Origin: Clostridiaceae bacterium JG1575
GTDB taxonomy: Bacteria > Bacillota > Clostridia > Clostridiales > Clostridiaceae
Reading direction: 5' to 3'
NCBI GenBank assembly: GCA_002838815.1
Contig: LQGW01000034.1
Span: forward strand, 1-64,000
DNA length: 64,000 nt
Shown here: positions 1 to 59,453 of the stretch, piece by piece
Position numbering within the stretch: the first letter of the stretch is position 1
How the letters are laid out: the number at the start of each line of letters is the position of its first letter
Position numbers and translations under genes: made by a program
Notes under the pieces: model-generated
The model's input: the letters and a program-made list of their open reading frames with translations, nothing else
Told to the model about the DNA's origin: nothing
The model's database searches: none

Positions 1-1
1 G

Positions 2-184
2 ACCTTTTATACTTTTACACAATTATATGGACTTTATCATCCACTCTCACAGTTTTGCCTTAAGTTTTATCGTGATCGAATAAAAACGGCGTCCATCAAC
101 GATATCGATCCAATGGCCAAAAACCGGGAATTCTCGGTGAAAAATGAACGGTTTTATAATGCGAGCGTGATTTCGTTGAATTAG
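2..184 (+). CDS. possible C-terminal end of an unknown gene, cut by the window edge
   Basis: An open frame enters from the left edge and runs 60 codons to a TAG at 182-184. The peptide is rich in aromatic and charged residues (for example FYRDRIKTASINDIDP) and looks more like protein than random translation, but I recognise no family. The stretch is clearly more AT-rich than the rest of the window. A 63-codon antisense frame (238-47) overlaps it and is the main alternative. Both could be chance, or remnants of a decayed mobile gene. Confidence 0.25.
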   Translation, partial: TFYTFTQLYGLYHPLSQFCLKFYRDRIKTASINDIDPMAKNREFSVKNERFYNASVISLN

Positions 185-58527: not shown

Positions 58528-58765
58528 GCGGCGAGCCCTCACAGCAAGATCATCGAAGGCGAAGCGGCGCTCAAGCCGTTATAGAGCGCTTGAGAACCCA
58601 AGACCGTTTCTCTTGCATAGAAAGCAGACAGCTGGGATTTTTATGCAATCGCTCCTTTAAAATTTCATGAATGGGAACTGCGGCCCGTTGAACTTTTTGA
58701 AGTTTGTATTTTCCAGGACCTTTAGAATCAAATTGCCAATCCGCGGGAAAAAACATGCAGGATTT
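58528..58765. other. gene-free spacer before the DnaA-box cluster
   Basis: No supported frame. It contains an inverted repeat CTCAAGC...GCTTGAG at about 58571-58595. A 154-codon minus-strand frame over 58571-59035 has no ribosome site, reads through the DnaA boxes and is treated as chance. Confidence 0.45.
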
Positions 58766-58879
58766 TGTGGAAAACCCCTGGGTTATCCACAGAAAATGTG
58801 GACAACACCCCTCAAATGTGCATAACTTCGTGGATAAGCTGGGGAAAGCCTTGGGAAAGTCACGGTTTTCTGGGGACAA
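58766..58879. promoter_or_regulatory. cluster of DnaA-box-like 9-mers
   Basis: Six boxes lie in 114 bp: TGTGGAAAA (58766-58774), the perfect consensus TTATCCACA (58783-58791), TGTGGACAA (58797-58805), TGTGCATAA (58817-58825), CGTGGATAA (58829-58837) and TGGGGACAA (58871-58879). All but the second read TTnTnCACA-like on the minus strand. The four central boxes are 5-11 bp apart. Such spacing is typical of DnaA-binding regions. The following gene encodes an ATP-cone protein, so DnaA control of that gene is a possibility. Confidence 0.7.
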
Positions 58880-59018
58880 CTCCCCTGGAATCGCTTCAAG
58901 GGGCCCTTTGGCAAGACGCTTCAATTTGTTAACAATCATTGAAATCGATCTTCGCCCAAGGCGGGTCTTGTTCGGTAGGTTGTACAATAAAACCAAAGAA
59001 AATGTAGGAGGCCAGCGC

Positions 59019-59453
59019 ATGATTACAGTAATCAAACGAAATGGGAATCAGCAGCCCTTTGACGAACATAAGCTTCGGGTCAGTATTCTAAACGCCGCCC
59101 GCGATGCCGGGGTCCAAATGAGCGACAAGGAAACCAAATTGGTGGCCGAGGACGTGGAGCATTTGCTCAAAGCGCTTCGAGGCGAGGAGGCCGTGACCTC
59201 CTCCATCGAAATCCGCTCCTTGGTTCGCACCTCCCTTGTGAACTTTGGCTACTCTCAGGTCGCCGAGCTCTTTGAGCGTGGAAAGCTTGCCGATATTACG
59301 GACATCGAGCGCCACAGAAAGGCCTTGGAGGAGCATCGGAAGGCCTTGGAGACGTTAACCAACCAAAAGATCGTTGTGGTGAAGGAAAAAGACGCTCCCG
59401 ACGAGGAGACGGACGATAAGACGCATCTGCATCAGTCCAAGAATCCCTGGTAA
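59019..59453 (+). CDS. stand-alone ATP-cone domain protein
   Basis: 144 residues. The ATG at 59019 follows TAGGAGG; the longer open frame upstream crosses the DnaA boxes and is not used. Residues about 1-90 form an ATP-cone (VIKRNGNQQPFDEHKLRVSILNAARDAGV...VAEDVEHLL...SIEIRSLVRTSLVNFGYSQVAELF), the nucleotide-sensing domain of ribonucleotide reductases and of the repressor NrdR. The zinc-finger region of NrdR and any reductase domain are missing. A helical charged tail follows (about 95-144). It may sense ATP/dATP and regulate a partner. The partner is unknown. Confidence 0.8.
   Translation: MITVIKRNGNQQPFDEHKLRVSILNAARDAGVQMSDKETKLVAEDVEHLLKALRGEEAVTSSIEIRSLVRTSLVNFGYSQVAELFERGKLADITDIERHRKALEEHRKALETLTNQKIVVVKEKDAPDEETDDKTHLHQSKNPW

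Follow-up and report, generated by a model that had tools for sequence, protein, structure and literature searches.

The window analysed here is the whole stretch of 64,000 nucleotides, bases 1-64000 of contig C34 in the 2.38-Mb draft genome G000. It holds a group of DnaA-box-like sites 182-253 bp upstream of the start codon (59019) of a gene for a free-standing ATP-cone protein. The upstream neighbours of the group are genes for a DUF3783 protein and a cyclophilin, and a radical SAM gene lies downstream of the ATP-cone gene in convergent orientation. Boxes were sought on both strands with the consensus TTWTNCACA, a good box having at most one mismatch, and the region was aligned with those of G001 and G002, the sole other members of the genus that our searches returned (n = 3 with the window genome; G002 is closed). 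The features are as follows.

58755..58761, plus strand: invariant ATGCAGG adjoining box 1 in the three-genome alignment
58766-58774, minus strand: DnaA box 1, TTTTCCACA, 0 mismatches; aligns with TTATCCCCA in G001 and G002
58783-58791, plus strand: DnaA box 2, TTATCCACA, 0 mismatches, perfect consensus; counterpart TTATCCCCA in G001 and G002
58797-58805, minus strand: DnaA box 3, TTGTCCACA, 1 mismatch; TTGTACACA in G001, TTATGCACA in G002
58817-58825, minus strand: DnaA box 4, TTATGCACA, 0 mismatches; TTATGCACA in G001, TTATACACA in G002
58829-58837, minus strand: DnaA box 5, TTATCCACG, 1 mismatch, 3 bp from box 4 on the same strand; not conserved, with no counterpart in G001 and G002 in the three-genome alignment
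58840, minus strand: weak site CTTTCCCCA, 2 mismatches
58871-58879, minus strand: weak site TTGTCCCCA, 2 mismatches
58928..58947, plus strand: block GTTAACAA-N4-TGAAATCG, about 80 bp upstream of the start codon, kept in the three genomes
58979..58988, plus strand: GTTGTAnAAT near -35 relative to the start codon, conserved in the three-genome alignment
59019..59453, plus strand: free-standing ATP-cone protein, 144 aa, Pfam PF03477 (E=1.5e-10); the same gene lies downstream of the boxes in G001 and G002

Five boxes with at most one mismatch, three of them perfect, fall within 72 bp (58766-58837), and this is the single place in the 64 kb window where at least four such boxes occur per 150 bp. 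When a perfect box was scored as 2 and a near box as 1 and the scores were summed over 72 bp, the cluster reached 8, a value attained by none of 400 first-order Markov windows of matching composition, whose maximum was 5. Isolated box matches in the window are near chance (108 observed against 94 expected), and thus the significance rests on the clustering; what lies here is a real DnaA-box cluster outside oriC, beyond chance. The preliminary description, made from the letters of the sequence, had claimed several clustered DnaA-box-like sites, mostly in one orientation, and both points are borne out, the minus strand predominating; its number of six comes down to five, the sixth (58871-58879) being one of the weak sites. 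Boxes 2 and 3 are convergent and separated by a 5-bp gap. Genome-wide box counts were taken from pattern searches, one of them comprising the first 100 of 214 places.

Another part of the window, 555-35336, holds a 35-kb cluster of five very large ORFs of 1552-2019 aa. Judged from their translations, they resemble proteases of the subtilisin type that carry cell-wall-binding repeats at the C-terminus, and what reads as an iron-siderophore-type ABC transporter interrupts the cluster. At least five other contigs begin with the same 38 bp as the window (1-38, GACCTTTTATACTTTTACACAATTATATGGACTTTATC), and a second, similar end sequence stands at the starts of five further contigs. These shared sequences, which account for many of the TTTTACACA matches, look like ends of insertion sequences, apparently of IS256 type, at which the assembly broke. 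An Rfam scan of the window gave no matches.

The 144-aa ATP-cone protein carries neither the remainder of NrdR nor a reductase domain, and NCBIfam gave partial matches to it that fall far under the cut-offs. Three further open frames in the window genome, of 179, 782 and 847 aa, have ATP-cone matches; by their size they are probably NrdR and two reductases. Aligned with the window protein, the relatives' proteins show identities of 51% (G001) and 45% (G002), and upstream of both genes four boxes stand in the same strand order as in the window (-,+,-,-), with start-to-start distances of 17, 14 and 20 bp that are identical in all three genomes. The boxes lie at -264 to -213 in G001 and at -270 to -219 in G002, so that across the three genomes the cluster begins -253 to -270 from the ATP-cone gene. 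The proposal of the preliminary description, a DnaA-titrating or DnaA-regulated site that could be checked by the conservation of the boxes upstream of the ATP-cone gene, is therefore supported, as four boxes and their exact spacing are kept in both relatives.

Aligning the three genomes leaves 30 of 36 box columns invariant (83%) against 4 of 24 spacer columns (17%) and 15-20% of the flanks, a difference whose Fisher p=5e-7 is only indicative because the alignment was anchored on the boxes. The exact spaced layout occurs once in each of the three genomes, in 0 of 191 other genomes of the family and never in reversed controls, by a pattern composed after the three genus sequences had been inspected. 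A contig search for relatives of the ATP-cone protein added the contig of G001 and otherwise only distant matches, most of them gammaproteobacterial or fragmentary. The cluster is absent from those homologues in other genera for which we read the preceding DNA. The DnaA of the window genome retains the DHTT motif, which has its role in the DNA-binding domain of the protein.

The relatives differ from the window in one gene. In both, an XRE-family gene (L009 2303-3013 and L010 2349-3056) follows the DUF3783 gene and precedes the boxes, its product being a regulator with a possible S24-like C-terminus. A search of the whole window genome found no homologue of this gene, and one of the window itself no remnant. 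The cluster is intact despite this absence, which indicates that the element goes with the ATP-cone gene, and an operator of the adjoining XRE protein is unlikely, as the boxes are still there in the genome that lacks the protein.

In G001 and G002, boxes 1 and 2 (both TTATCCCCA) form a stem of 15-16 bp with five T behind it (z -6.6 and -7.4), a hairpin that looks like a terminator of the XRE gene, and this makes the role of these two boxes ambiguous in the relatives. The same structure could mean that the whole cluster only mimics DnaA boxes, boxes 1 and 2 being a palindromic terminator and boxes 3 and 4 the site of another protein. We consider this improbable: the hairpin of the window genome is weak (z -1.9) and lacks the T-run, all four boxes are kept there in the absence of the XRE gene, box 2 of the window matches the DnaA-box consensus perfectly, and the stem does not take in boxes 3 and 4, which are the clearest putative DnaA boxes of G001 and G002. 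Moreover, TTATCCCCA lies inside clusters of the origin region of G002 (2817142, 2824155) and inside the cluster at an HD-domain-like gene of the window genome and G001 described below, which supports its reading as a DnaA-box variant in the genus. Its total in 420 kb of G002, 6 against a composition expectation with mean 2.55 and sd 2.79, is not unusual, so that this support comes from location only.

The preliminary description had also considered that the origin might have left the dnaA locus, a reading for which the clustered boxes alone speak. It was correct that dnaA is not nearby, since contig C34 has no DnaA-family match and the only full-strength DnaA gene of the window genome lies on contig C35. 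From ORF translations we take its neighbours to be rnpA, yidC, jag, mnmE, mnmG, rsmG and parAB-like genes on one side and dnaN, recF, gyrB and gyrA-like genes on the other. The dnaA/dnaN/rpmH neighbourhood by which an oriC is recognised is thus found on C35 and not at the cluster, and this canonical locus has perfect boxes of its own, six at C35:90069-90408 and five at 83246-83455. In G002, dnaA (2,816,040) and the ATP-cone cluster (2,550,627) are 266 kb apart, and the GC skew, taken from twenty 10-kb samples and noisy within 100 kb of dnaA, is positive over the stretch that starts at about 3.08 Mb and runs across zero to 1.2 Mb; it is negative at 1.37 Mb and stays so as far as the dnaA region, near which it reverses. 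At 2.55 Mb there is no lasting reversal, the site lying inside the negative-skew arm, nor was a clear reversal found at the cluster in the window. The dnaA locus on C35 together with the skew rules out a relocated origin, to which we give practically no chance. The cluster does share box variants with the oriC of the window genome, where TTATCCACA, TTATGCACA and TTATACACA recur (as TTATCCCCA does at the origin of G002), but it is unlike that oriC in lacking both the dnaA/dnaN neighbourhood and a skew reversal. Most likely, it is a DnaA-controlled switch or a DnaA sink and not a replication origin.

Two other clusters outside the origin are conserved in the genus.

G000:C56:8720-8774 and G002:2216105-2216138: second conserved extra-oriC cluster, between genes that we recognised as presumably rluB-like and ispF-like
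G000:C35:102605-102697, G002:2800173-2800443 and G001:C260:7423-7524: third conserved cluster, upstream of an HD-domain-like gene

In the ispF region TTATGCACA directly abuts TTTTGCACA, and TGTGGATAA follows after 6 bp. The cluster at the HD-domain-like gene, whose domain match is weak (E=0.0035, under the Pfam cut-off), lies about 12-17 kb from dnaA and has a convergent pair 5 bp apart in 3/3 genomes. Convergent box pairs within 24 bp were found in 188 of 194 genomes of the family, controls giving mostly 0-1, so extra clusters are ordinary there, and what is special is the fixed layout at the ATP-cone gene. Gaps in the 68 convergent family pairs listed were for the most part 14 bp (15 cases), 2-3 bp (18) or 5-6 bp (14), which suggests a few preferred box-pair geometries in the family.

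The cluster thus belongs to a known kind, the extra-oriC DnaA-box cluster, with a downstream gene that is unusual and testable. The clusters of B. subtilis resemble it as grouped boxes outside oriC, mostly intergenic or upstream of genes, several per genome and some near oriC; the DnaA-bound regions there lie near ywlC, ywcI, gcp, sda, trmE and yydA, genes that differ from the free-standing ATP-cone gene here. The six B. subtilis clusters act jointly on initiation, since their joint deletion leads to early initiation (PMC5295017), and at several such sites DnaA represses or activates genes (PMC4447404). E. coli has DnaA binding ahead of the nucleotide-synthesis genes nrdA, nrdD and purH (PMC11317965), and a nucleotide-linked DnaA target is in keeping with this. 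The resemblance is that DnaA boxes precede a gene with a link to nucleotide metabolism; the E. coli sites, however, serve biosynthesis genes and consist of a double box 2-3 bp apart, an arrangement that in our cluster only box 4 and the non-conserved box 5 share.

Upstream of the ATP-cone gene, GTTGTAnAAT is a candidate -10 promoter region, for which no well-conserved -35 element was found in the three-genome alignment, and the block GTTAACAA-N4-TGAAATCG is possibly the site of a second regulator. From the cluster to the presumed -10 downstream of it there are about 150 bp, a long way for simple repression, and titration accordingly keeps a place in our interpretation. Indeed, the cluster could be purely a sink that titrates DnaA after early replication, with the ATP-cone gene merely adjoining it. 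Its distance from the presumed promoter, its position 266 kb from dnaA in G002, its being one among several clusters, the joint action of the B. subtilis clusters and the experimental support for titration in E. coli (PMC12371093) are all in line with this. On the other hand, a pure sink need not keep an exact spacing, and in 3/3 genomes the cluster is found before one and the same gene, at -253 to -270, with further conserved blocks between it and the start codon; we regard a pure sink as unlikely. We favour regulation on account of the link to the gene, the similarity of the distance and the conserved blocks on the promoter side.

The convergent pair of boxes 2 and 3 also raises the question of a DARS-like site, at which the pair with its 5-bp gap would reactivate DnaA by promoting the release of ADP. 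The core of E. coli DARS1/DARS2 has a convergent 5-bp pair in common with the cluster, as in DARS2 (TTATTCACC-5bp-TGTGGATAG), and its head-to-head boxes I and II are essential in E. coli (PMC10380432); in the genus the 5-bp pair is present in 3/3 genomes and also at the HD-domain gene locus. DARS, however, requires box III 3 bp behind box II, and here no box has that spacing, box 4 lying 11 bp behind box 3 in all three genomes. In addition, among the listed family pairs gaps of 2, 3, 5, 6 and 14 bp are all common, and 5 bp forms no special peak. Because the third box is missing and the family has no special preference for 5 bp, we did not file the cluster as a DARS, a reading that we find very improbable. 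We found no example of an established DARS-like convergent pair in Gram-positives, and the existence in B. subtilis of regulators that balance ATP-DnaA and ADP-DnaA, like datA and DARS of E. coli, has been described as unknown (PMC13220808).

Our preferred reading, which we think probable, is that of an extra-oriC cluster at which DnaA binds boxes 1-4, regulates the ATP-cone gene and is also titrated; we infer this occupancy, the transcriptional effect and its direction, and the titration from the sequences. DnaA would bind the four boxes cooperatively in a fixed geometry, in which the convergent pair 2/3 with its 5-bp gap is flanked by boxes 1 and 4, and expression of the ATP-cone gene would be tied to the amount or the nucleotide state of DnaA. 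The product of the gene should sense ATP/dATP, and the cluster, as one of at least three conserved outside the origin, would draw DnaA from oriC. We counted against this explanation the hairpin of G001 and G002, the roughly 150 bp between the cluster and the -10, the small sample of three genomes for the genus and the homologues of other genera that lack the cluster.

A more specific version, which we offer as doubtful, is that DnaA directly controls a free-standing ATP-cone sensor in a conserved circuit. Initiation would then be coupled to nucleotide pools by way of this dedicated sensor, in place of NrdR or ribonucleotide reductase, and a DARS-like pair may take part; our literature search found no paper joining 'ATP-cone' with 'DnaA box'. 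If DnaA does control the ATP-cone gene, the replication initiator would be linked to a small nucleotide-sensor protein, and the three-genome set of conserved clusters provides a test bed for titration versus gene regulation in Clostridia.
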